Made by a program: the position numbers and the translations under genes | In this document: one piece after another, positions 19,044-32,708 of the stretch | Numbering within the stretch: the stretch's first letter is position 1 | Layout: each line of letters starts with the position of its first letter | The notes under the pieces: model-generated | Told to the model about the DNA's origin: nothing | The model's database searches: none | What the model saw: only the letters and a program-made list of their open reading frames with translations | Assembly (NCBI GenBank): GCA_040753795.1 | Contig: JBFMDX010000005.1 | Coordinates: 124,001 to 188,000 of the forward strand | Source of the DNA: Thermodesulfobacteriota bacterium | GTDB lineage: Bacteria > Desulfobacterota > Desulfobacteria > Desulfobacterales > Desulfosudaceae | Direction of reading: 5' to 3' | Length of the DNA stretch: 64,000 nucleotides

Positions 19044-19331
19044 ATGAAATACTGGCGTGAGCCTCTGGATTCAAATGAAATCGTCGTGTCCAGGGGAAAA
19101 GTGATCATTATCGCGGATCGATGCAAGGGTTGCGGGTACTGCATCGAATTCTGCCCCCGGGAGGTGCTGGCGTTCTCCCCGGACTACAATATAAAAGGAT
19201 ACCATCCGCCGGTGGTCAGGAATGATGACTGCCTGAACTGCCATTACTGTGAACTGCTGTGTCCGGAATTCGCCATCTACTCGGTGGAAGACCCCCTGCC
19301 GCCGGCGGCGGACGCCCATTCTGAAACTTAA
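19044..19331 (+). CDS. korD: 2-oxoglutarate:ferredoxin oxidoreductase delta (ferredoxin) subunit
   Basis: 95 residues with two 4Fe-4S motifs: CKGCGYCIEFCPREVL and CLNCHYCELLCPEFAI. It is the electron-carrying subunit of a four-subunit 2-oxoacid:ferredoxin oxidoreductase, passing electrons from the TPP site to ferredoxin or a partner complex. It heads the operon; korA follows after 41 bases. Assignment to Kor rather than Por/Vor rests on the alpha and beta subunits and gene order. Confidence 0.88.
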   Translation: MKYWREPLDSNEIVVSRGKVIIIADRCKGCGYCIEFCPREVLAFSPDYNIKGYHPPVVRNDDCLNCHYCELLCPEFAIYSVEDPLPPAADAHSET

Positions 19332-19372: not shown

Positions 19373-20518
19373 ATGAAACCATCCGTCCTAACCGGAGAGC
19401 ACTTTATCAACGGTGATTTTGCCTGCGCCGAAGGCGCTATTGCCGCGGGCTGCAAGTTTTTCGGGGCCTATCCCATCACCCCGGCCACGGAAGTGGCCGA
19501 GCGCATGTCCGAGCGGCTGCCGGATGTGGGCGGCACCTTTGTCCAGATGGAGGACGAAATCGCCGCCATGACCTCCATCCTGGGGGCCGCCTGGACCGGC
19601 GTCAAGACCATGACCGCCACCTCGGGCCCGGGCTTCAGCCTGATGATGGAAACCGTGGGCCTGGCCGTGGTCACCGAAACCCCCTGCGTGGTGGTCAACA
19701 TCCAGCGCGCCGGTCCTTCCACCGGTCTGCCCACCATGGGCGCCCAGGCCGACATGATGCAGGTCCGCTGGGGCTCCCACGGGGACTATGAGATCATCGC
19801 CATCGCGCCCTCTTCGCCCCAGGAGATGTTCGACCTGACCATCGAAGCCTTCAACCTGAGCGAAACCTATCGGGTGCCGGTTTTCATCATGTCCGACGAG
19901 ATCGTGGGCCACATGAGCGAAAAGGTCGTCATTCCGGCGGCCCAGACCGTGAAAACCGTGGACCGCAAGAAACCAACCGGCCGCAAAAAAGGCTACCTGC
20001 CCTATCATCCCGACGAGAACGGCGTGCCGCCCATGCCGGCCATCGGCGACGGCTACAATATCCATGTCACCGGTCTGACCCACGACGAGCGGGGCTACCC
20101 GGTCATGTCCGTGGAGGCCCAGAAGGATATGGTCACCCGCCTGGTGAACAAGATCCGCCGTAACCGGGACAAGATCATCCGCACGGAAGGCTACCTGTTA
20201 AAAGACGCCGAAATCATTATTGTCTCCTACGGCGTTTCGGCCCGGACCAGCTACACGGCCGTGGACGAGGCCCGCAGGCTGGGCATCAAGGCCGGTCTGC
20301 TGCGGCTGATCACCGTCTGGCCTTTCCCGGACGACACCATCCGCAAGCTGGCGGAAAAAGCCAGAGGCTTTGTGACCGTGGAAATCAACATGGGGCAGAT
20401 CAGCCGCGAAGTGGAGCGCTGCGCCGGCGGCAAGGCCCCCTGCCACCTGGTCGGCCACACCGGCGGAACAGTCATAACGCCTGATGAAGTCATCAACCTG
20501 ATCAAAGAGGCATTTTAA
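19373..20518 (+). CDS. korA: 2-oxoglutarate:ferredoxin oxidoreductase alpha subunit
   Basis: 381 residues. The N-terminal pyrimidine-binding domain has GDFACAEGAIAAGCKFFGAYPITPATEVAE and ATSGPGFSLMMET, both diagnostic for the alpha subunit; the C-terminal transketolase-like domain has GLLRLITVWPFPDD and FVTVEINMGQ. In anaerobes this enzyme oxidises 2-oxoglutarate to succinyl-CoA with reduction of ferredoxin, or runs reductively. The start at 19373 has no obvious ribosome binding site, but the YPITP region would be truncated by later starts. Its stop lies one base before korB. Confidence 0.92.
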   Translation: MKPSVLTGEHFINGDFACAEGAIAAGCKFFGAYPITPATEVAERMSERLPDVGGTFVQMEDEIAAMTSILGAAWTGVKTMTATSGPGFSLMMETVGLAVVTETPCVVVNIQRAGPSTGLPTMGAQADMMQVRWGSHGDYEIIAIAPSSPQEMFDLTIEAFNLSETYRVPVFIMSDEIVGHMSEKVVIPAAQTVKTVDRKKPTGRKKGYLPYHPDENGVPPMPAIGDGYNIHVTGLTHDERGYPVMSVEAQKDMVTRLVNKIRRNRDKIIRTEGYLLKDAEIIIVSYGVSARTSYTAVDEARRLGIKAGLLRLITVWPFPDDTIRKLAEKARGFVTVEINMGQISREVERCAGGKAPCHLVGHTGGTVITPDEVINLIKEAF

Positions 20519-20519
20519 T

Positions 20520-21347
20520 ATGGGCGCCAAAAAACAACCGGTGCATCCGCTGGAAGATCTTATCCGCGTGGACCGACTTCCCCACATCTGGTGTCCGGGA
20601 TGCGGGGTTGGCTCGGTTTTTTCAAGCTGCCTTGAGGCTATCAAAGCCACCGGCATCGACTATCGTAAATTCACCATGGTCTCCGGCATCGGCTGCTCCG
20701 GAAGGGGCGCGGGTTACATCAACCTGGACTCCTTCCACACCACCCACGGCCGCGCCATCCCTTTTGCCAGCGGCATCAAGATGGCCAAACCGGACTTGAA
20801 CGTCATTGTTTTCTCCGGCGACGGGGACCTGTTCGCCATCGGCGGCAACCATTTTATTCACGCCGCCCGTCGCAACACGGACATCACCGTCATCTGCATC
20901 AACAACCTGATTTACGGCATGACCGGCGGCCAGGTGGCGGCCACCACGCCCAACCGGGCCAAGACCGCCACCACGCCCTACGGCAACCCGGAGACGCCCT
21001 TCAACCTGCCGCTGCTGGCGGCCGCTTCGGGCGCGACCTACGTGGCCCGGTGGACCATGATTCACGTCCGGGACCTGATTCATTCGATCATGGAGGCGCT
21101 CAACCATCACGGCTTTGCCTTCATTGAGGTGCTCTCGCCCTGCCCCATCAACTACGGCCGGCGGAACAAGGAGCCCTCGACCCAGACGCTGAAAAATTTC
21201 CAGGACAAAACCATCATCAAAAACGGCGCCGACCCGGCCACCCTGAGCATGAGCGTTGCCGAAGGCATCACCCTGGGCAAATTCGTCCACAAGGAGATGC
21301 CGACCCAGGATGAGTGCTATGCCAAGGTTTGTTTGGGGGAGAAGTGA
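20520..21347 (+). CDS. korB: 2-oxoglutarate:ferredoxin oxidoreductase beta (TPP) subunit
   Basis: 275 residues. IWCPGCGVGSVFSS opens the domain; GIGCSGRGAGYINLDSFHTTHGRAIPFASGIK and VFSGDGDLFAIGGNHFIHAARRN with NNLIYGMTGGQ form the thiamine-pyrophosphate site (GDG ... NN). AGAGG nine bases upstream supports the start. Its stop codon runs straight into the heptamer array that separates it from korC. Confidence 0.93.
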   Translation: MGAKKQPVHPLEDLIRVDRLPHIWCPGCGVGSVFSSCLEAIKATGIDYRKFTMVSGIGCSGRGAGYINLDSFHTTHGRAIPFASGIKMAKPDLNVIVFSGDGDLFAIGGNHFIHAARRNTDITVICINNLIYGMTGGQVAATTPNRAKTATTPYGNPETPFNLPLLAAASGATYVARWTMIHVRDLIHSIMEALNHHGFAFIEVLSPCPINYGRRNKEPSTQTLKNFQDKTIIKNGADPATLSMSVAEGITLGKFVHKEMPTQDECYAKVCLGEK

Positions 21348-21585: not shown

Positions 21586-22179
21586 ATGAACAAGAAAAAG
21601 GACATAATACGGAAAGAAATCGTCGTCACCGGCTTCGGCGGCCAGGGCATCGTGCTGGCCGGCAAGATCCTGGGACAGGCGGCGGCCCTGGGCGACAAGA
21701 AAGAGAGCACCCTGGTCCAGTCCTACGGCCCGGAATCCCGGGGCGGGGCCTGTTCGGCCCAGGTGATCGTCTCGGACACGGTCATCCAATACCCGTACAT
21801 CAAGACGCCCGACGTGCTGGTGTGCATGTCCCAGTCCGCCTACGACAAGCACAAGGATTCCCTCAAACCCGAAGGCCAGCTCCTGGTCGACCGCGACCTG
21901 GTCAAGCCCGACGGCAGCCGGGAGTTCTTCGCCATCCCCTCCACCCGCATGGCCGAAGAGATGGGCAAAAAGATGATGGCCAACATCATCATGGTCGGGT
22001 TCACCGTGGCCATCACCGGCGCCATTTCCGAAGCCGCGACCCGGGACGCCGTCACCGCCTCGGTGCCCAGGGGGACGGAGAAAACCAACATCCAGGCCTT
22101 TACCAAGGGCTTTGAATACGGCCAGTCCCTGCTCAAGGGGCGGGAACGCAAGGCCTCGGGCCAGACGGGGGTGATCTGA
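21586..22179 (+). CDS. korC: 2-oxoglutarate:ferredoxin oxidoreductase gamma subunit
   Basis: 197 residues matching the gamma domain: EIVVTGFGGQGIVLAGKILGQAA near the N-terminus, SYGPESRGGACSAQVIVSD, and PDVLVCMSQSAYDKH. Completes the Kor complex. GGAAG seven bases upstream supports the start. The stop overlaps the next start (TGATG), so korC and the large flavoprotein that follows are translationally coupled, strong evidence that Kor and the Hdr-like proteins form one system. Confidence 0.92.
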   Translation: MNKKKDIIRKEIVVTGFGGQGIVLAGKILGQAAALGDKKESTLVQSYGPESRGGACSAQVIVSDTVIQYPYIKTPDVLVCMSQSAYDKHKDSLKPEGQLLVDRDLVKPDGSREFFAIPSTRMAEEMGKKMMANIIMVGFTVAITGAISEAATRDAVTASVPRGTEKTNIQAFTKGFEYGQSLLKGRERKASGQTGVI

Positions 22180-25100
22180 TGAAACGGGAAAAGGAACGCC
22201 TGCAGCGGGTGCTGGTCATCGGGGCGACGCCGGCGGGGATCGCGGCGGTCAACAAGCTCGGCGAACTGGGCGTGCCCGTGACCCTGGTGGACCGGGACGG
22301 CGATCTGGACGCCCGGCTGGGCGCGGACCACTGGCGCTTGCCCTCGGGAACGCCGCTGAACCACGCCCATCGGCCGGGGCTCCTGCGGATCCTGCGCAAT
22401 CCCGGCATCCGGTCCCTGTTTCCGGCCCGGGTGGCCGCCATCAAGCACAGCCACCAGGGCTTCCGGGTCGATGTCCGGACCGAACCGACCTATGTCGACG
22501 CCGACCTCTGCGTTCTCTGCGGCCGCTGCGTGCAGGTCTGCCCGGTCAACTGCGACGGCCGCAAGGCCATCGGGTTTGCCGGCCGCCATAGCCTGCCCGG
22601 CGGGGCCGTTATCGACAAGCGGCGCCTGCCCCTGTGCCGGGAAGGCTGCCCCCTGGGCGTCAATGTCCAGGGATACGTGGCCCTGGCGGCAGCCGGGCGT
22701 TTTGCCGAAGCTCTGGACCTGGTCCGGCAGCGGAACGTGCTGCCCGGCATCTGCGGCCGCATCTGCACCCATCCCTGCGAAGAAGCCTGCCGCCGTAACG
22801 AACAGGACCAGGCCGTGGCCATCCGCGACATCAAGCGGTTTCTGGCTGATGAAGAAATCCGGCACGGCGCCGCCGGGAAAACGGATGCGCCCAGGCCGCC
22901 GGAACGCGCCGAAAAAATCGCCGTCATCGGCTCCGGCCCGGCCGGCTTGGCGGCCGCCGCCGAACTGGCCCGCCAGGGCTGCCGGGTGACGGTTTATGAA
23001 AAAGAGCAGCAGGCCGGCGGCCTGCTGCGTTACGGCATCGGCCCCCACCGCCTGCCCCGGAACATCCTGGACCTGGAACTGGCCTGGATCGAAGGGCTGG
23101 GCGTGACATTCGTCCTGGGCCGGAACATCGATTTTAAGAAAGACCTGCCCGGTCTGGCCAAAGATCATGACGCGGTCCTGGTGACGGCCGGCACCTGGGC
23201 CGACCGCAAGCTGGACGCCCCGGGCGAAGACCTGGAAGGCGTCGAGGGGTGCCTGGATTTTCTGCCGCGCCTCTACCGGGGGGAAATCAAGCGCCTCAAA
23301 GAAAAGATCGCCGTCATCGGCGACGGCAACGCCGCCTTTGACCTGGCCCGGGCCCTGGTCCGCATCGGCGCCGAGGTGACCATCGTCTCCTGGTTCGACG
23401 CCGACAGCATCCCGGCCGACCCGGCCGAATACGCCGGCGCCCTGGCCGAAGGCGTCAAGCTGCATCCCGGCGCCCGGGTGATCGCCTTTGAAGGCGAAAA
23501 AGGCCGCCTGCGCCGGCTGGTCTGCCGCCCCACCCAACCCGGTCCGGCCGACGACCGGGGCATTTGCTGGCCGGTGGTGGTCAAGGGCAGCGAGGCCTAT
23601 CCCCTCGAGTTTGACCGGGCCGTGGTGGCCATCGGCCAGACCGGACCCTGGACGGCCGGCAATGTCGGCGGGCTGAAGGTCTCCGACCGGGGGCTGATCG
23701 CGGTGGACGAAAACCGGAAGACCGGGCTGAAAAACGTCTTTGCCGCCGGCGACGCCGTCACCGGCTACTCCTCGGTGGTGCAGGCCATGGCCGAGGGCCG
23801 GGCCGCGGCCGTAAAGATCCTGGAAAGCGTCTGCGGCCTGGTCATCGATGACCCGGCTGGCGCCCGACCGGCCGACCGTGATTTTCCACCCCTTCCCCAG
23901 GGGATGCCCCCCTGCCCCCGGACCGCCATGCCGGAATTGAAACCGTCCGAGCGCAAAGGCAATTTCGAGGAAGTGGCCCGGGGACTCACGGAAGCGCAGA
24001 TCAAACTGGAAGCCGGGCGCTGCCTGCAGTGCGGCGTCTGTTCCGAGTGCATGGAGTGCGTGACCGCCTGCGGCCCCATCAACGCCCTGCGCCACGATGA
24101 AACCTGGGAAACCGTTTTCGAGCAGGTCGGCGCCATTATCATCGCCGACCCGGAGCAGGCCCCGCCGGTCCGGGGGGACGACATCATCCGCGCCTACGGG
24201 CCGAACACCTCCCGGGCCGACGTCCCGGCCATGATGACGCGCGGCTACGCCGCCGCCGCCCGGGCCATGACCATGCTCGGGGACACCTCCTCCCGCCAGC
24301 GCCGTGGAAAGGGCGTGGCCTTCACCCCGCCCGATCCCGGGCTGTCGCCGGCCATCCGCATCGGTGTTTTCTTTTGCACCTGCAACCGGTCCCTGGGATG
24401 GCTTCCGGAATTCGACGATTACGCCCGCGCCCTGGCCGACCGGCCGGACATCGTTCACGTGGAAACCATGCCCTCGGCCTGCGTGCCCGACGGCATCAGC
24501 CGCATCCTCCGGACTGTCCGCGAAAAAGGCATCACCCGCCTGGTGCTTACCTCGTGCGTCTGCTGCCCCCTGGATTTTGTCTGCAGCGCCTGCACCGACC
24601 AGCGCAGCCGGCTGAAAAAAGGGCTGTTCACCGCCACCGGCATCAGCCGGTCCATGGTGACCACCTTCAATCTCCGGGGAGAAGTGCTCAACCTGATCGC
24701 CTCCTCGCCGGAAACGGCCGTCCGCCGGTTCGAAGGCATGACCGACCGGGCCATCCGCCGTTCCCGTCATCTCAAGCCCTTCACCTCGCCGGCCCGCAAC
24801 TACAACTTCACCACCGCCGTCATCGGCGAATCCGAGGCGGCCGTGGAAAGCGCCCGGGTCCTCTCCCGGCTGGGCCTGGACGTGTTCATGTTCGGGACCA
24901 AAGACAAGCCGCTGTCCGACCGGCACGGTGACGTGGACGTGCTCCGTTTCGAAGGTTCGACGGCCATGCGCGTATCCGGCAGCCTGGGTGATTACCATAT
25001 CCTGGTGCGCCTGGGTGACGGTCAGGAACAGGAGTTCCAGGCCGGCGCCGTCATCTTCGGGGACAAAAACCCGGAGGCGGTACCGTTCCTTCGCCAGACC

Positions 25101-25544
25101 GAGCTTCCCGGCCGGGGGATTTCGGCCGCCATGCAGCGGCCCGGCGTCACCGGCATACCGTTTTATTATCCCGGCATGACCTCCATGTCCGGCCTTTTCG
25201 TGGCCGACCCGCCGGGGATCGAGGTGTCCACCCGCCAGAAAGGCGCGGCGGCGGCCATCCTGGCGGCGGCGGTCATGCCCCGGGGGCCGCGGCAGAGCAA
25301 GGGCTACAACGTGTCCATCGACGCCGGCCGCTGCCGGTTCTGCGGCCGCTGCATCCACGTCTGCCCCTACCAGGCCATCGTCGCCCGCATGAACGATTAC
25401 GGCAACTGGCACGCGGCCGTGGATGAAACCCTGTGCAAGGGGTGCGGCAACTGCATCTCCGTCTGCCCCTCCAACGCCGCCGACAGTCCCTACCGCGACC
25501 AGCAGTTTTTAGAACAGACGCTGGAGGAAATTTTACTTAAATAA
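22179..25544 (+). CDS. HdrA-like / GltD-like fused flavin iron-sulfur oxidoreductase
   Basis: 1121 residues, a mosaic. N-terminal Rossmann-like VLVIGATPAGIAAVNKLG; a ferredoxin cluster CVLCGRCVQVCPVNC at about 110; the glutamate-synthase-small-subunit type Fe-S domain (CREGCPLGVNVQGY, CGRICTHPCEEACRR) from 153; an FAD/NAD(P)H domain with IGSGPAGLAAAAELA at 251 and a second dinucleotide fold IGDGNAAFDLARAL; CLQCGVCSECMECVTACG at about 614; an HdrA-like middle with FFCTCNRS and CVCCPLDFVC from 731; and two C-terminal 4Fe-4S motifs (CRFCGRCIHVCPYQA, CKGCGNCISVCPSNA). This is the layout of a flavin-based electron-bifurcating NAD(P)H-linked module. It is coupled to korC by a 1-base overlap. Physiological direction is unknown. 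Confidence 0.88.
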   Translation: MKREKERLQRVLVIGATPAGIAAVNKLGELGVPVTLVDRDGDLDARLGADHWRLPSGTPLNHAHRPGLLRILRNPGIRSLFPARVAAIKHSHQGFRVDVRTEPTYVDADLCVLCGRCVQVCPVNCDGRKAIGFAGRHSLPGGAVIDKRRLPLCREGCPLGVNVQGYVALAAAGRFAEALDLVRQRNVLPGICGRICTHPCEEACRRNEQDQAVAIRDIKRFLADEEIRHGAAGKTDAPRPPERAEKIAVIGSGPAGLAAAAELARQGCRVTVYEKEQQAGGLLRYGIGPHRLPRNILDLELAWIEGLGVTFVLGRNIDFKKDLPGLAKDHDAVLVTAGTWADRKLDAPGEDLEGVEGCLDFLPRLYRGEIKRLKEKIAVIGDGNAAFDLARALVRIGAEVTIVSWFDADSIPADPAEYAGALAEGVKLHPGARVIAFEGEKGRLRRLVCRPTQPGPADDRGICWPVVVKGSEAYPLEFDRAVVAIGQTGPWTAGNVGGLKVSDRGLIAVDENRKTGLKNVFAAGDAVTGYSSVVQAMAEGRAAAVKILESVCGLVIDDPAGARPADRDFPPLPQGMPPCPRTAMPELKPSERKGNFEEVARGLTEAQIKLEAGRCLQCGVCSECMECVTACGPINALRHDETWETVFEQVGAIIIADPEQAPPVRGDDIIRAYGPNTSRADVPAMMTRGYAAAARAMTMLGDTSSRQRRGKGVAFTPPDPGLSPAIRIGVFFCTCNRSLGWLPEFDDYARALADRPDIVHVETMPSACVPDGISRILRTVREKGITRLVLTSCVCCPLDFVCSACTDQRSRLKKGLFTATGISRSMVTTFNLRGEVLNLIASSPETAVRRFEGMTDRAIRRSRHLKPFTSPARNYNFTTAVIGESEAAVESARVLSRLGLDVFMFGTKDKPLSDRHGDVDVLRFEGSTAMRVSGSLGDYHILVRLGDGQEQEFQAGAVIFGDKNPEAVPFLRQTELPGRGISAAMQRPGVTGIPFYYPGMTSMSGLFVADPPGIEVSTRQKGAAAAILAAAVMPRGPRQSKGYNVSIDAGRCRFCGRCIHVCPYQAIVARMNDYGNWHAAVDETLCKGCGNCISVCPSNAADSPYRDQQFLEQTLEEILLK

Positions 25545-25838
25545 AGTTTTAAAGTGTTAAGTTTTAAGTATTAAGTATTAAGTGTTAAGTATTAAGTATT
25601 AAGTTTTAAGAGTTAAGGTTTAAGTTTGAGGTTGTGGATAGCATGAACAGCAGGAAAGAATTTAGAAAGCCTGAAAAATGAACAACCATTTGAAAACAAC
25701 ACATCATTTTTTAAATATGTGCAGTCATGTCACCCCGGGCCTAACTTCTAACACTTAACACTTAAAACTTAACACTTAACACTTAACACTTAACACTTAA
25801 TACTTAACACTTAATACTTAACACTTAAAACTTAAAAC
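25545..25838. repeat. Inverted heptamer array 2 (TTAAGTR / YACTTAA)
   Basis: Left arm 25545-25628 consists of TTAAGTG/TTAAGTA/TTAAGTT units; right arm 25748-25838 of CACTTAA/TACTTAA/AACTTAA units. About 120 bases of unrelated non-coding sequence sit between. Same repeat family and same inverted layout as the array at 21345. The 316-base gap contains no gene. Confidence 0.85.
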
Positions 25839-25860
25839 TATCTGCTTATAAGGAACAACC

Positions 25861-27465
25861 GTGGCAAAGACACCGACAGACAATAAAGGAAAAGATATCA
25901 GTATAATTCTTTTTTTATGCAACTGGAGCCCTCATTCCGCCTATCACGCGCTGCTGGATCAGGGCTACGCCATGCCGGCCCAGATGCGCATGATCCGCAT
26001 TCCCTGCACCGGTCGGATCACCAAGGCCCTGCTGTTCAAGGCCTTCGAGATGGGCGCCGACGGCGTGGCCCTGCTGGGCTGCAAGTCCGGCACCTGCCGT
26101 TACGGCTCCGGTACCGACGCCGCCACCAACAACACCGAGGACACGCGAAAAATCCTCGATCTGGCCGGGATCGGGCCAGAGCGCATGAAGATGGCGACCT
26201 TCTATCCGGATGAAACCGTGGCCCTGAAAGAGTTCCTGGAGACCTTCCGCGATGAAATCATCGCCCTGGGCAAAAGCCCGGTGGTCCCGTCCGGCGGCCT
26301 GCGGCTGGAAGACCGCACCGCCCTGCCCCCGTTCGCGGAGATTCTGACCCGCTACAATGCCTACGAGTGCCAGGACTGCGGCAAGTGCACCGCCTCCTGC
26401 CCCCTGGCCTTGAGCGGACGCCCCTTTTCCCCCCGGGCCCTGGTCGGGGCCATCATCGCGGGAGAGGCCGAAAAGGTCAACAACGACATCTGGGCCTGCC
26501 TGACCTGCGGCATCTGTTATGACCGCTGCCCTTCGGGCGTCAATTTTCCGGATTTCGTGCGGGACGTCCGCTGCGAGTTGATCGGCAGCGGCGAACGCCA
26601 TGCCACCCACGGCGGCTTCTTCCAGTCCCTGATGCGGGCCATGACCTCGCCGGACCTGCGAACCCGACGATGGGGAGGTCTGCCTGAAAGCGTTAAAACC
26701 GACCCGGATTCACCGATTCTCTTCTTCGGCGGCTGCGCCCCTTTTTTTGACGCTTTTTTCCGCAAGCACACCGGCGTGGGCACTACCGGCATCCTGGAGG
26801 ACAGCCTGCGGCTGCTGAACTTTTTCGACATCCGGCCAGCCGTTCTGGAACATGAACGCTGCTGCGGCCACGACCTGCTCTGGTCCGGGGACCGCGAGAA
26901 TTTCTTAAAGCTCGCCCGGCTCAATGTCGAAGCCATCCGGACCAGGAGGACGCAGGAAGTCATCACGGCCTGCCCGGAATGCTGGCGCACCCTGGCCGTG
27001 GATTATCCCGCCCACGGGATCGACATTGGTTTCAAGGTCACCCACCTGTACGAGATTCTGGCCGAAAAGATTGAAAACGGGGCATTTTCCTTCAAGCCCC
27101 TGGAGCGGCGCTTCACCTTCCAGGACTCCTGCCGCATGAACCGGTTTGAACAATTACGGGACCTGCCCCGGCGGCTGATCCAACGGATCGCGCCGGACGC
27201 TTTTGCCGAAATGAAAGACCACGGCGCTTCGTCCATCTGCTGCGGTAACTGCGCCTGGATCGGGTGCGACGCTTTCAGCAAGGCCATGCAGGTCAACCGC
27301 CTGGGCCAGGCCCATGCCTCCGGCGCGGAGCTTCTGGTGACGGCCTGCCCCAAATGCCAGGTTCACCTGCGCTGCGCCATGGAAGACCCCCTGCGGGGCG
27401 AAGAGCTGGAAATGGAGATGATGGACCTGACCGGGGTCATCGCGCGAACGTTGAAATGGGAATAA
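25861..27465 (+). CDS. MvhD-HdrC-HdrB fusion protein
   Basis: 534 residues from a GTG start with AAGGA seven bases upstream. Residues 1-135 resemble MvhD, the small iron-sulfur subunit that passes electrons to HdrA (FLCNWSPHSAY, then GCKSGTCRYGSG); the first motif keeps only one cysteine of the usual pair. An HdrC-like part has CQDCGKCTASCPLA and CLTCGICYDRCPSG. The C-terminal HdrB-like part has two CCG domains (HERCCGHDLLWSGD with CPECWRTL, and ICCGNCAWIGC with CPKCQVHL), which in HdrB bind the noncubane clusters that reduce disulfides. The disulfide or other acceptor here is unknown. Confidence 0.9.
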   Translation: MAKTPTDNKGKDISIILFLCNWSPHSAYHALLDQGYAMPAQMRMIRIPCTGRITKALLFKAFEMGADGVALLGCKSGTCRYGSGTDAATNNTEDTRKILDLAGIGPERMKMATFYPDETVALKEFLETFRDEIIALGKSPVVPSGGLRLEDRTALPPFAEILTRYNAYECQDCGKCTASCPLALSGRPFSPRALVGAIIAGEAEKVNNDIWACLTCGICYDRCPSGVNFPDFVRDVRCELIGSGERHATHGGFFQSLMRAMTSPDLRTRRWGGLPESVKTDPDSPILFFGGCAPFFDAFFRKHTGVGTTGILEDSLRLLNFFDIRPAVLEHERCCGHDLLWSGDRENFLKLARLNVEAIRTRRTQEVITACPECWRTLAVDYPAHGIDIGFKVTHLYEILAEKIENGAFSFKPLERRFTFQDSCRMNRFEQLRDLPRRLIQRIAPDAFAEMKDHGASSICCGNCAWIGCDAFSKAMQVNRLGQAHASGAELLVTACPKCQVHLRCAMEDPLRGEELEMEMMDLTGVIARTLKWE

Positions 27466-27537
27466 TTTCAGGCCGCCTTGATGTTGTTTTGAATGCTGTA
27501 AAAACAGAATCGATAAGGTCGAAAAACCGCATATATA

Positions 27538-27617
27538 TGTCATTTCGAGCGCAGCGAGAAATCTCGAAAAAATAATATTACAGAAAAACGAGATTGCTCG
27601 CTGCGCTCAAAATGACA
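27538..27617. repeat. 80-bp inverted-repeat element
   Basis: Two 29-base arms, beginning TGTCATTTCGAGCGCAGCG and ending with CGCTGCGCTCAAAATGACA, separated by 22 AT-rich bases. This is a widespread mobile-looking intergenic palindrome in many environmental bacteria. It sits in the 197-base gap before the selenoprotein hdrA gene. Confidence 0.8.
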
Positions 27618-27689
27618 AATCGACCGACCTCGATCTTACGATTGCATCAGAATTGAAGAAGAGTGAAAACACCTGAAAAGGAACTCAAT

Positions 27690-30110
27690 ATGAAAGAAGA
27701 AAAAACAGCGCCCGTCGTCGTGTCAAAGGACCAGCCGCGGATCGGGGTTTATGTCTGCCGCTGCGGACTGAACATCGCCCAGACCGTGGACTGCGCCGGC
27801 GTGGCCAGAACAGCCGCGGGCCTTGACGGCGTCCGCGTGGCCAAGGAAATCACTTATGCCTGCTCCGAGCCCGGCCAGGCGGAGATCGTCGAGGACATCC
27901 GGGACAACAACCTGAACCGCATCGTGGTGGCCTCCTGCTCGCCGCGCCTGCACGAGCCCACCTTCCGGCAGATGTTGAAGAAAGCGGGCTTGAACCCCTA
28001 CCTGCTGGAAATGGCCAACCTGCGCGAGCAGTGCAGCTGGGTACATATGAAGCAGCCGGCCGAAGCCACGGCCAAGGCCGAAGACCTGGTCCGCATGGCC
28101 GTGGCCCGGGCGAGCCGCCTGTGGTCCCTGACCGAGGAAGTGCTGCCCATGACCAAGCGAACCCTGGTGGTCGGCGGCGGCGTGGCCGGCATCCAGGCCG
28201 CCCTGGACCTGGCCGACAACGGCTACGAGGTCTTCCTGGTGGAAAAGAACCCGTCTATCGGCGGGATGATGGCCCAGCTGGACAAGACCTTCCCCACCAT
28301 GGACTGCTCCATCTGAATACTGGGGCCGAAAATGGCGGATGTCGGTCGACATCCCAACATCACGCTGCTGACCGCAAGTGAAGTAATCGACGTCAAAGGT
28401 TACGTCGGTAATTTTGATGTGCGCATCCGGAAAAAATCCAAATTCGTCATCGAAAAGGAGTGTACCGCCTGCGGCGACTGCGCCAAGGCCTGCCCGGTGG
28501 TCTATCCCGATGAGTTCAACGCCGGTTTGGGCTCCCGCAAGGCCATTTACATCCCCTTCCCCCAGGCGGTGCCGGCCTCGTACCTGATCAACATGCAGGA
28601 GTGCCTGGGCCACGGCTGTACCCGCTGCGCCGATGCCTGCGAGAAGCACTGCATCGATTTTCACCTGTCCGACGAGGAGATCAACGTGCGCGTGGGCACC
28701 ATCGTCGTGGCCACGGGCATGGAGTCGTATGATCCGCGGGAAATGGACGAATACGGCTACACCCGCTTTAACAACATCGTCACCAGCGTCGAGTTCGAGC
28801 GCCTGGTCAACGCCGGCGGCCCGACCAAAGGAACCCTGGTGCGCCCGGGCGACCGCAAGCATCCCAGATCCGTGGGCTTTATCCAGTGCGTCGGATCACG
28901 CTCCCGGCGCAAGGGCGGCGTTTACTGTTCCAACATCTGCTGCATGAACACCATCAAGAGCACCCTGGTGTTAAAGGAGCACGATCCGGATATCGACATT
29001 ACCGTTTTTTATATCGACATCCGCGCCTTCGGCAAAGGCTTCGAGGATCTCTACAACCGGAGCCGCGCCCTGGGCGTGCGCTATGTCCGGGGGCTGCCCG
29101 GCAACGTCGAAGAGACCGCCGACGGCGGCCTGCGAGTGGCCGTGGAGAACACCGCCAGCGGCAAAATCGAATTTCATGATCTGGACATGCTGGTGCTGGC
29201 CGTGGGCATGCAGCCCACGGCGGGCGCCCGCAAGCTCCAGGAGATGCTGGGCCTGCAGCTCACGCCCGACGGTTTCTTTCTGGAGGCCCATCCCAAGCTC
29301 CAGCCGGTGGACGCCGCCACCCGGGGCATCTTCTACGCCGGGTGCGCCGAAGGTCCCAAGGATATCAAGGAGAGCGTCACCCAGGCCTCGGCGGCCGCGG
29401 GCCGGGCCATCCGGCTCATGCACCGGGGCGTAATCCTGTCCGAACCCATCACCTCGGAGGTCGTCGCCGAGCACTGCAAGTGCTGCGGCAAATGCGCCGA
29501 AGTCTGCCCCTATAATGCCATTACGGTGGACGTGAAGAAGAAGATCCCGGCCGTGGTCAACAAGGCGGCCTGCGCCGGCTGCGGCACCTGCGCCGCCGAG
29601 TGCGTTTTCGGGGCCATTGTCATGAACCACTTCACCGACGAGCAGATATTAAGCCAGAGCGACGCCCTGCTGGCCGACAACCCGGCCGACAAAATCCTGA
29701 CCTTTGCCTGCAACTGGTGCTCTTATGCCGGGGCCGACTATGCCGGCGTCTCCCGGCTCCAGTACCCGCCCAACGCCCGCCTCATCCGGACCATGTGCTC
29801 CGGCCGGGTGGACGAGAAGTTCGTCTGGCACGCCTTTGCCAAGGGCGCGCCGGTGGTGCTGATTTCCGGGTGCCACATCGGCGACTGCCATTACATCAAC
29901 GCCAACCACTGGACGGAAAAGCGGGTGGAGAAGATGCACCGCAAGATGGAGAAACTCGGCCTCCGGCCGGAACGGCTCCAGCTGGAATGGATCAGCGCCG
30001 CCGAAGGCGTGCGCTTCGCCAACGTCATGCAGAAGATGGAAGAGATCCGCCGGTCCGTGACGCCTGACGAGATCGCTGACACCATCCGCATCATCAGCGC
30101 CCGGGAGTAA
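27690..30110 (+). CDS. hdrA: Selenocysteine-containing HdrA with C-terminal MvhD domain
   Basis: 806 residues if the in-frame TGA at 28314-28316 is read as selenocysteine 209. The upstream 27690-28313 and downstream 28317-30110 parts share one frame and join without loss into a normal HdrA: YVCRCGLNIAQTVDC, FAD site VVGGGVAGIQAALDLA at 161, then TMDCSI-Sec-ILGPKMADVGRHPNI where other HdrA proteins have a cysteine. Later come CTACGDCAKACP (258), CKCCGKCAEVCPYNA (596), CAGCGTCAAECVFGA (628) and an MvhD domain with ACNWCSYAGADY and SGCHIGDCHY to the end. A SECIS-like hairpin follows the TGA. AAGGA seven bases before the ATG at 27690 decides the start. HdrA selenoproteins are known in methanogens and some deltaproteobacteria. 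Confidence 0.9.
28314..28354 (+). promoter_or_regulatory. Sec UGA codon with SECIS-like hairpin
   Basis: TGA at 28314-28316, then 20 bases, then a perfect 7-bp stem GGATGTC / GACATCC (28337-28343 with 28348-28354) closed by the loop GGTC. Bacterial SECIS elements have an apical loop carrying a G among its first bases at roughly this distance from the UGA, so both geometry and loop fit. Confidence 0.75.
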
Positions 30111-30326: not shown

Positions 30327-30398
30327 TGATGGCAATAAAAGCAAGTTTTTATCCTTATCCTTTTGGCATTCAATCCGATTTCTAAGAAAGATCTAATA

Positions 30399-32504
30399 AT
30401 GAAAACTAATTTCTTCTTCCTCTTTCTTTTTCTCGTTCTCGTGCTGATCTTGGGGGCTTGCGATGGATCGCACAACCACACCAATTTTGACTCCTGCGCG
30501 GAACTCGAGCGCTGGGCCACATCTGACTTGTGCTCATCGTTCGATCCTCAAGCGCTGGCGAATCACCTCCGCACAGAAGATGCGGAGTGGCCTGACATCC
30601 CGGCGTCAATCACTTCGGATATCGACCTGACCGAGGACGACGAGGCTTTCCTCAAGCTTGCGGTGGAAGCTTACGTCTGGGGCTACTCGCCGATGACCAT
30701 CTACCGGCTGGAGCAGGAGAAGATCAATAGCCAGGCGCCCCAGAACCACTTCTACCATCCCACCCACCTGGCTTACTGGCAGCCCCCGTCGCCGGTGTCC
30801 GCGCCCAACATGGACGTGCTCTATAGCAGCGCCTTCCTCGACCTGTCCCAGGGACCGCTCGTCTTGACGATGCCGCCCGTGGAAGGCTACTACGTGGTAC
30901 AGCTCGACGATGCATACGGCAACTCCCAGGCCTCGCTGGGAAGCCGCACGCGGCCGGGCGGTGCGGCCGATTCGTACTTGATCGTCGGGCCGTCGGACCC
31001 GGCCTACACCGACCCCGGCAGCTACCTGAGTCATGGGTTCGACCAGCAGCACGTGCTCCCGGTGGATACGGAACACGCCTGGCTCATCGTCCGAATCCCC
31101 ATAAATCCATACGCAGAACCCGGCTCGCCGCGCTCCCTCACGGAAAGCGCCAGCTACAAGGCCAATACCGCTTTCGACCTGACGCCACTTCTGAACCCGC
31201 AACCGGTCACGCCCATGGACCCGGAGGTGTCGAAGAAGTTCAAGGAGCCGCCCTCCGACGCCATGACCTTTTTCACCTGGCTGGGGATGGCCGTAAAAGG
31301 CAGCCCCCTCCCCACGCAGGCGGCCTTCAGCTCCGAGACGTTCCCGCCCTACCTGATGAGTCCCAGCGCCTCGGTAAGTGAGGATCAGCTGGCGCTGTTC
31401 GATTCGTTCCAGCTCCTCGGGCTGGACGCCCTTGGCTTCCACCCGGAGCGTCTCAACTGCCGCCAGAGGGCCCTGCTGGAGGCCGGAATGGTCATCGGGG
31501 ACTGCATCCTCAAAGCGGGACAGGGTTTCATCACCGTCGGGCCGCCCGACCAGAACTACTGGCACGTCATGGGCACCTCCAACATCGGCAAGTACCCCAA
31601 CACGCCAAGCGGCTGGACGGTACGTTCCATCGCGGCCTACGAGGGCGGCATCGCCAGCCTGGCGCCGGACGGCACCTACCCCACCACGGCCCACGACGGC
31701 CAGGGCGCCCGCGTGAGGGGCGGCCGGGCTTACACCATCACCTTCGATGCGGACAACCTGCCGCCCGTGAACGCGGGCGGCTTCTGGAGCCTGACGATTT
31801 ACTCCGACAACAGCGCCAGCGGCGTGCAGACGAACCTCCCCGCGGTCTCGTCCGCGGCCGTCCTCAACACGGCCTACTCGCAGCTACCCGACGACGCTAC
31901 CTCAGTAGTGGACACGACGCATTTCTCCAATCCCGATTACCAGGAGGACGACACCGTCTATTTCGCTGTATCCGGCGGCGGGATCGACGCGGAGAGCCCG
32001 TACTTCGTTTTTAATGCAAACGACGAGGGCTTCCAGCTGAGTCGCGGCCCCTGGACGCCTGATCACAGCGGCATGACGGCGATCACCGTGGATCCGTCCC
32101 TCATCGGACAGACCCTGATGACGGGGCTCGTCATCCCCGTTCATTCCCTGGGTTCGCAGCAGTTGCCGGACGCCCCGCCGGGGCTCCGAGGCACCCAGCT
32201 GGCCTTCGAGACGGACGACAACGGAAACAGCATCCTGCGCCTCTACCTCCAGGACACGCCGCCAGCAATCCGCAGCAACTGGCTGCCCATCCCGGACAGC
32301 GGGAGCACGTTCCAGGTTATGGCCCGCCTCTATAACCCCACGGCTGCAACCGAGCAGAGCGGTGGTGCCTCCATCCTGTCCAGCACCACTATTCCTCTGA
32401 CGACAGACGACCCCGATCTGGCGAAGCAATATCCTCAGGAGCCGGTCAATGATTCGAATCGATACGGCACCTTCGTACTCCCGCCGATCGTGCCGATCGA
32501 ATAA
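30399..32504 (+). CDS. DUF1254/DUF1214 domain lipoprotein
   Basis: 701 residues from the ATG at 30399, which begins a lipoprotein signal (FFFLFLFLVLVLILGAC-D, lipobox LGAC). DUF1254 features follow: AYVWGYSPMTIYRLEQ, PNMDVLYSSAFLDLSQGP and GYYVVQLDDAYGN; the C-terminal DUF1214-like part has WSLTIYSDN and YLQDTPP. Typical DUF1254-DUF1214 proteins are shorter, so extra loops are present. The family is of unknown activity and often predicted secreted. A second copy of part of hdrA just downstream and its own promoter suggest it arrived separately from the hdr cluster. Confidence 0.85.
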   Translation: MKTNFFFLFLFLVLVLILGACDGSHNHTNFDSCAELERWATSDLCSSFDPQALANHLRTEDAEWPDIPASITSDIDLTEDDEAFLKLAVEAYVWGYSPMTIYRLEQEKINSQAPQNHFYHPTHLAYWQPPSPVSAPNMDVLYSSAFLDLSQGPLVLTMPPVEGYYVVQLDDAYGNSQASLGSRTRPGGAADSYLIVGPSDPAYTDPGSYLSHGFDQQHVLPVDTEHAWLIVRIPINPYAEPGSPRSLTESASYKANTAFDLTPLLNPQPVTPMDPEVSKKFKEPPSDAMTFFTWLGMAVKGSPLPTQAAFSSETFPPYLMSPSASVSEDQLALFDSFQLLGLDALGFHPERLNCRQRALLEAGMVIGDCILKAGQGFITVGPPDQNYWHVMGTSNIGKYPNTPSGWTVRSIAAYEGGIASLAPDGTYPTTAHDGQGARVRGGRAYTITFDADNLPPVNAGGFWSLTIYSDNSASGVQTNLPAVSSAAVLNTAYSQLPDDATSVVDTTHFSNPDYQEDDTVYFAVSGGGIDAESPYFVFNANDEGFQLSRGPWTPDHSGMTAITVDPSLIGQTLMTGLVIPVHSLGSQQLPDAPPGLRGTQLAFETDDNGNSILRLYLQDTPPAIRSNWLPIPDSGSTFQVMARLYNPTAATEQSGGASILSSTTIPLTTDDPDLAKQYPQEPVNDSNRYGTFVLPPIVPIE

Positions 32505-32571: not shown

Positions 32572-32708
32572 CTCCGGCCGGGTAGACGAAAAGTTCGTCT
32601 GGCACGCCTTTGCCAAGGGCGCGCCGGTGGTGCTGATTTCCGGGTGCCACATCGGCGACTGCCATTACACTGACGCCAACCACTGGACGGAAAAGCGGGT
32701 GGAGAAGA
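32572..32708 (+). pseudogene. Duplicated 3' fragment of hdrA (MvhD domain)
   Basis: 137 bases aligning without gaps to 29798-29934 in the selenoprotein hdrA, with five mismatches by eye. It still encodes SGRVDEKFVWHAFAKG and SGCHIGDCHY but has no start, no 5' part and runs out of frame context after KRVEKK. It is a gene remnant left by duplication or recombination around the DUF1254 gene. Confidence 0.9.

Follow-up and report, generated by a model that had tools for sequence, protein, structure and literature searches.

The locus considered here raises the question of whether an hdrA gene interrupted by an in-frame TGA codon is a broken gene, a misread gene, or a gene in which this codon is translated as selenocysteine (Sec), the rare 21st amino acid. 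The gene lies in a stretch of 64,000 nucleotides (hereafter the window, meaning the whole stretch of DNA that was analysed), and the two features at issue are the following.

27690..30110, plus strand: hdrA (HdrA2 with a C-terminal FlpD/MvhD domain), 806 amino acids, predicted selenocysteine as residue 209
28314..28316, plus strand: in-frame TGA, the putative selenocysteine codon 209, motif CxxU (C206-S-I-U209)

Sequence comparison indicates that hdrA is almost certainly a working selenoprotein gene with UGA codon 209 recoded as selenocysteine. The frame and family match, the Sec machinery of the genome, the recurrence of the TGA in relatives, and the conservation and covariation of the stem behind it together argue for a selenoprotein gene and against both a pseudogene and a read error; the earlier note on this DNA likewise preferred selenocysteine to a pseudogene.

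The single TGA at 28314-28316 stands in one frame that runs from the ATG at 27690 to the stop ending at 30110, and counting it as one residue gives a protein of 806 amino acids with a computed mass of about 88 kDa that contains TMDCSI-U-ILGPKM. When scored with C written at residue 209, this protein reaches 1191.5 bits with the NCBIfam model HdrA2 (NF040770; cut-off 1100), and the alignment covers residues 17-794 of 806 and positions 1-775 of the 777 in the model, in agreement with the earlier claim that family sequence is intact on either side of the TGA. The methanogen HdrA equivalogs NF041778 and NF041891 gave 637.8 and 634.8 bits, under their curated cut-offs of 1400 and 1300, respectively. 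Within the protein a Pyr_redox_2 match is found at residues 157-349 and PF02662, the FlpD/MvhD part, at residues 669-785. Ordinary ORF calling yields two pieces (27663-28316 and 28332-30110), which is the split that had been foreseen for automated annotation.

The UGA stands in frame at the conserved Cys position of the family. In the alignment to HdrA proteins that the earlier note had suggested, residue 209 pairs with Cys197 of the methanogen protein 5odc_A in an ungapped block, and Cys codons occupy the site in 11 of 150 homologous loci, so that the placing of the TGA at an HdrA cysteine was borne out. Methanogen HdrA (5odc_A and others; E 1e-228) shares the same domains over residues 14-663 and has Cys at 197 in two aligned chains, while 5odc_A (654 amino acids) differs in having no fused FlpD domain.

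In selenocysteine synthesis serine on tRNA-Sec is converted to selenocysteine by SelA with selenophosphate from SelD. The genome (4.75 Mb, 41 contigs, 99.76% complete) was searched for this machinery, whose absence would have spoken against recoding, and all four sel genes are present above their cut-offs: selA with 602.6 bits, selB with 372.1, selD with 360.3, and selC as one tRNA-Sec match of 75.1 bits against a cut-off of 47, on which ARAGORN concurs (tRNA-SeC). The selD gene carries an in-frame TGA of its own, which on by-eye reading stands in the context GAG-U-ASK near the protein start, and two more HdrA-type stretches of the same genome, on contigs C24 and C6, have a TGA in the motif NDCAM-U-VISPK. 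In the proposed mechanism the UGA at codon 209 would be decoded as selenocysteine via the selC-encoded tRNA-Sec, and SelB would deliver the selenocysteyl tRNA while binding the predicted GGUC-loop hairpin that begins 20 bases past the UGA.

In the same genome an HdrA-type fusion gene that carries the Sec motif (L202; contig C6, 95500-106000) spans two frames, a layout that possibly reflects a frameshift, an assembly error, or two genes. In the window itself a crude scan for other genes with an internal TGA gave no convincing second case among the 30 longest candidates, hdrA included, the other 29 being judged only from their coordinates and the bases following the TGA.

The behaviour of codon 209 in relatives was followed in a set of 150 loci. 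Counting the own genome, 194 genomes of the order were searched, 76 of which had a match to the protein at E <= 1e-150, and the set consists of the own locus, 29 and 40 loci from this order search, and the best 80 of 582 named relatives; the 40 were hand-picked from the order-search matches, with those cut by a contig end mostly left out. Codon 209 is TGA in 139 of these loci, TGC in 6, and TGT in 5, where 139 of 150 is not a population frequency, since the sets overlap and were chosen by similarity. The 139 TGA genes represent 118 distinct sequences around the codon, and 149 of the 150 loci have no other stop at aligned positions. In the remaining one, a distant relative (L088), a TAG at position 663 falls at the end of the HdrA part. 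Stops counted in the distant Cys-type relatives L088-L092 were rejected as interruptions, being the usual end of the HdrA part followed by a further stretch in the same frame.

A pattern search for the TGA motif across the phylum found it in 47 of 395 genomes, of which 9 belong to the same order (own included) and 38 to other orders, and the backward-read control of the pattern gave no match among the matches listed. The same TGA codon is also found in the named strains Desulfobulbus elongatus DSM 2908 (L160), Desulfatibacillum alkenivorans DSM 16219 (L181), and Desulfocicer vacuolatum DSM 3385 (L191), and in the latter two the hdrA gene likewise comes after FlpD-HdrCB and GltD-like genes.

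Behind the TGA lies the element that SelB is expected to bind.

28337..28354, plus strand: SECIS-type mRNA hairpin with a 7-bp stem and loop GGUC, conserved in TGA genes, with a covarying pair at 28342/28349

The stem arms are 28337-28343 and 28348-28354, the loop GGTC is 28344-28347, and 20 bases separate the TGA from the stem, exactly as had been read from the letters before; a hairpin of the kind expected in a bacterial selenoprotein HdrA is thus in place. Single-sequence folding was rejected as proof of a SECIS element, because it is unremarkable (z -1.77, with 12 of 200 shuffles equally stable) and too weak. Rfam, run at E up to 10 on 28200-28500, returned no SECIS family and one chance match (10.5 bits, cut-off 42), and at gathering level gave no match over the whole window. 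What places the hairpin beyond chance is not folding energy but the occurrence of the TGA in 139 of 150 loci together with stem conservation and covariation.

All seven pairs are kept in 127 of the 139 TGA genes and six in the other 12, while no Cys gene keeps seven and one of 11 keeps six; the median folding energy of the 22-nt piece is -10.8 kcal/mol in TGA genes and -3.0 kcal/mol in Cys genes. Over the 118 distinct TGA sequences the stem is paired at 98.8%, against 22-58% when the 3' arm is slid by 1-3 bases and 12-71% at 27 other nearby offsets, and the loop is GGUC in 116 and GGGC in 2.

The sixth stem pair (28342/28349) joins the middle base of codon 218, which decides between Val and Ala, with the third base of codon 220 (Arg). 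In the 118 distinct sequences this pair is T-A in 59, C-G in 47, T-G in 12, and C-A in none (Fisher p 1e-21), and the covariation of codons 218 and 220 is the strongest among the 488 codons that had enough data for the test, with the runner-up at p 0.0025. A tree-based test used a FastTree tree of 130 rows built with codons 218 and 220 left out. On its supported branches codon 218 differs in 14 independent pairs, and over 200 random pairings codon 220 follows it in 10-13 of the 14 and opposes it in none (sign test, median p 0.0005, range 0.0002-0.002). That the silent third base of an Arg codon should track a Val/Ala change is expected from an RNA stem and not from protein function.

Among the 11 Cys genes 9 are distant paralogues with 37-54% identity, and two are close (74% and 65%). 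The close ones occur in genomes that hold both types: G049 has a TGA copy (L065) and a close Cys copy (L080), and G164 has likewise L066 and L081. The Cys copy of G049 retains 5 of 7 stem pairs with the loop AACA and is nested among three TGA genes with a branch support of 97, and that of G164 retains 6 of 7 pairs, as 12 TGA genes do, with the loop GGAC. The tree requires at least 4 changes between Sec and Cys, 3 of them forced by supported branches, while the placement of L090 and L081 is unsure because of their long branches.

Several other explanations of the TGA were weighed against these results. The two fragments from standard ORF calling, together with a 137-nt partial hdrA copy downstream (32572-32708) indicating that the region has undergone rearrangement, would suit a pseudogene broken by a nonsense mutation; such a history is extremely unlikely, given that the TGA recurs in 139 of 150 loci, that the family match continues unbroken on either side of it (residues 17-794), and that the hairpin covaries. 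A sequencing or assembly error could be suspected in a draft genome of 41 contigs, and a corrected read without the TGA would indeed have removed the question, but the codon recurs in independent genomes, including the three named strains, which leaves an error as a vanishingly unlikely source of the TGA.

It is also very unlikely that the UGA is a true stop and the gene encodes two separate proteins, the second of 592 amino acids starting at ATG 28332: this start, five codons past the TGA, is conveniently placed, but Cys relatives run through the site in one frame, the break would fall inside the flavoprotein domain (Pyr_redox_2) just ahead of ILGPKM, and the TGA-linked hairpin would be purposeless. 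If near-cognate reading or a changed code let the UGA stand for another amino acid such as Cys or Trp, this would agree with the equivalence of the site to Cys; such decoding is made exceedingly unlikely by the full Sec machinery in the genome and by a SECIS-type hairpin that accompanies TGA and is mostly degenerate with Cys codons. Recoding as selenocysteine is therefore retained in what follows.

The hdrA gene is the last of seven genes in the order 4Fe-4S/korA/korB/korC/GltD-like/FlpD-HdrCB/hdrA(Sec) between 19044 and 30110, and the six upstream of it are listed here.

19044..19331, plus strand: small 4Fe-4S protein beside the 2-oxoacid:ferredoxin oxidoreductase genes
19373..20518, plus strand: 2-oxoacid:ferredoxin oxidoreductase alpha subunit (korA-like; NF006412, 577.7 bits, cut-off 411)
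20520..21347, plus strand: 2-oxoacid:ferredoxin oxidoreductase beta subunit (korB-like; PF02775; best NCBIfam match under its cut-off)
21586..22179, plus strand: 2-oxoacid:ferredoxin oxidoreductase gamma subunit (korC-like; PF01558, 117.2 bits)
22179..25544, plus strand: 1121-aa flavoprotein, GltD/NAD(P)H-oxidoreductase-like, with an HdrA-like ferredoxin end
25861..27465, plus strand: fused FlpD-HdrC-HdrB-like protein of 534 amino acids (FlpD, CCG, and Fer4 domains)

A partner of HdrB/HdrC type is thus encoded next to hdrA, with Pfam domains above their curated cut-offs and HdrC and other family scores under theirs. The fusion protein is a likely partner of HdrA, and so is the 1121-aa flavoprotein: at half length or more, the former is found in 75 of the 80 named loci (flanks up to 4 kb) and the latter in 57 of 80, where the flanks often cut its gene. 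In 13 relatives, hand-picked for long contigs from the 75 other matched genomes and inspected over 12 kb upstream of a TGA hdrA, the six upstream genes occur in the same order in all 13. The product would belong to a soluble Hdr complex as its HdrA2-type flavoprotein. By flavin-based bifurcation or confurcation this complex probably links ferredoxin with NAD(P)H and an acceptor of disulfide type, and the likely role of the operon as a whole is to exchange electrons among the ferredoxin supplied by 2-oxoacid oxidation, NAD(P)H, and such an acceptor.

Several repeats were noticed around these genes. The 137-nt copy matches hdrA 29798-29934 at 96% identity; it is separated from hdrA by a DUF1254/DUF1214 gene (30363-32504) and is perhaps a leftover of duplication or recombination; the DUF1254/DUF1214 gene had no match in the flanks (up to 4 kb) of the 80 named loci. 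An 85-nt inverted repeat with 85% complementarity is found at 25538-25853, where the GltD-like gene ends and ahead of the FlpD-HdrCB gene; one side has tandem 7-nt units of the TTAAGTG/TTAAGTA type and the other their reverse complements. Directly upstream of hdrA, at 27535-27620, an inverted repeat with 32-nt arms, 91% complementary and 22 nt apart, looks like a small repeat element.

The family precedent to which the earlier note appealed is in print (PMC1794560, PMC2702500, PMC5109826, in the parts cited here). In the study of Zhang et al. (2006; PMC1794560) a bacterial SECIS search showed that HdrA can contain Sec in Deltaproteobacteria as well as in other bacteria, and the part cited here tabulates 16 HdrA selenoproteins, 7 of them in Syntrophobacter fumaroxidans. 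The entry in a 2026 review (PMC13188914) gives the model NF040770 with the motif CxxU, that is, the same family model and motif as in the window hdrA, and heterodisulfide reductase or HdrA is named among selenoproteins in the cited portions of PMC8318568, PMC11227280, and PMC9312934. The window hdrA is one more case of a selenocysteine-containing HdrA, known in print since 2006 (PMC1794560), and is ordinary for its group; because such proteins are already documented in sulfate reducers and their kin, the finding is real and not new.

The gene surroundings differ from the described ones. Bacterial Sec-HdrA operons in the cited parts of PMC1794560 and PMC13188914 have the order hdrA-frhD-frhG-frhA (with glpC), whereas in the window hdrA is preceded by an FlpD-HdrCB fusion, a GltD-like gene, and kor genes, and the seven-gene order is not described in the cited parts of the Sec-HdrA literature. 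By description, HdrA1, HdrA2, HdrL1, and HdrL3 of the sulfate reducer Desulfobacterium autotrophicum HRM2 (PMC2702500, 2009) are comparable, being Sec HdrA-type proteins; as excerpted from that paper, HRM2 has several Hdr paralogues, part with Sec and part without, as does the own genome, but mvhD, formate dehydrogenase, or hydrogenase genes accompany them in that description, unlike at the window locus. Likewise by description, hdrA of Desulfococcus multivorans (dmul_C02770/80) appears in the cited section of PMC5109826 (2016) as two pieces, so annotated because of a UGA that stands upstream of a SECIS element. From the locus tag we infer that this is the hdrA1 of D. multivorans, which the same section places next to mvhD1 and a gene for a pyridine nucleotide-disulphide oxidoreductase and reports as detected by proteomics.

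The position of the residue suggests what selenium may do there. According to the cited part of PMC9012536, one HdrA contributes Cys197 as a ligand to the Fe-S cluster in the N-terminal part of its partner HdrA, and in ANME archaea fused or tandem HdrAs divide Cys197 and the N-terminal domain between copies; the structure is ascribed to M. wolfeii there and, for the published complex, to Methanothermococcus thermolithotrophicus in the cited part of PMC5861303, and the Cys197 numbering is taken here as that of 5odc.

The window HdrA holds both sets of residues, C23, C25, C58, and C83 as well as U209, as a homodimer would need. In 4 of the 6 other Hdr regions of the own genome (L200-L203; fused or tandem HdrAs) the two sets are split between halves: the CxxU/CxxC half has no N-terminal domain, and the other half has the equivalents of 23, 25, 58, and 83, with neither Cys nor Sec at 209, as is expected of a ligand in trans. 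The fifth (L204) fits the split partly: one of its proteins has Cys at 209 and lacks the N-terminal domain, while the other carries three of the four N-terminal cysteines but has no Cys at that position. In the sixth (L205) only the CxxC half is visible. At sequence level, then, a Cys or Sec at the position of Cys197 was found with the N-terminal cysteines, together or split, as a ligand in trans at that position implies.

A single alignment of Sec209 with Cys197, read with a second-hand account of the published structure, and the split pattern make it probable that Sec209 acts in trans, its selenolate binding the Fe-S cluster in the N-terminal domain of the partner HdrA. It is tentatively proposed, with a chance put somewhat below even, that Sec209 is a natural selenolate ligand of the partner's N-terminal [4Fe-4S] cluster on the path between FAD and ferredoxin, that selenium would tune this cluster and not serve as a catalytic nucleophile, and that the kor-Hdr operon of seven genes would depend on selenium for exchange between ferredoxin, NAD(P)H, and a disulfide. 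No description of selenium ligation of an HdrA Fe-S cluster was found among the papers listed from the open-access literature, a result that does not by itself show absence from print.

For annotation, the window gene is a reminder that ORF callers cut selenocysteine-containing hdrA genes in two. For the family, the close Cys copies with altered hairpins that stand beside TGA copies in G049 and G164 offer a natural comparison of Sec and Cys enzymes. The wider interest may lie in the chemistry, namely Sec in the place of an Fe-S ligand that, by description, the two HdrAs of a dimer share. The usual role of selenium is in active-site thiol chemistry, and a Sec-ligated cluster, if true, would be a role of selenium outside it.
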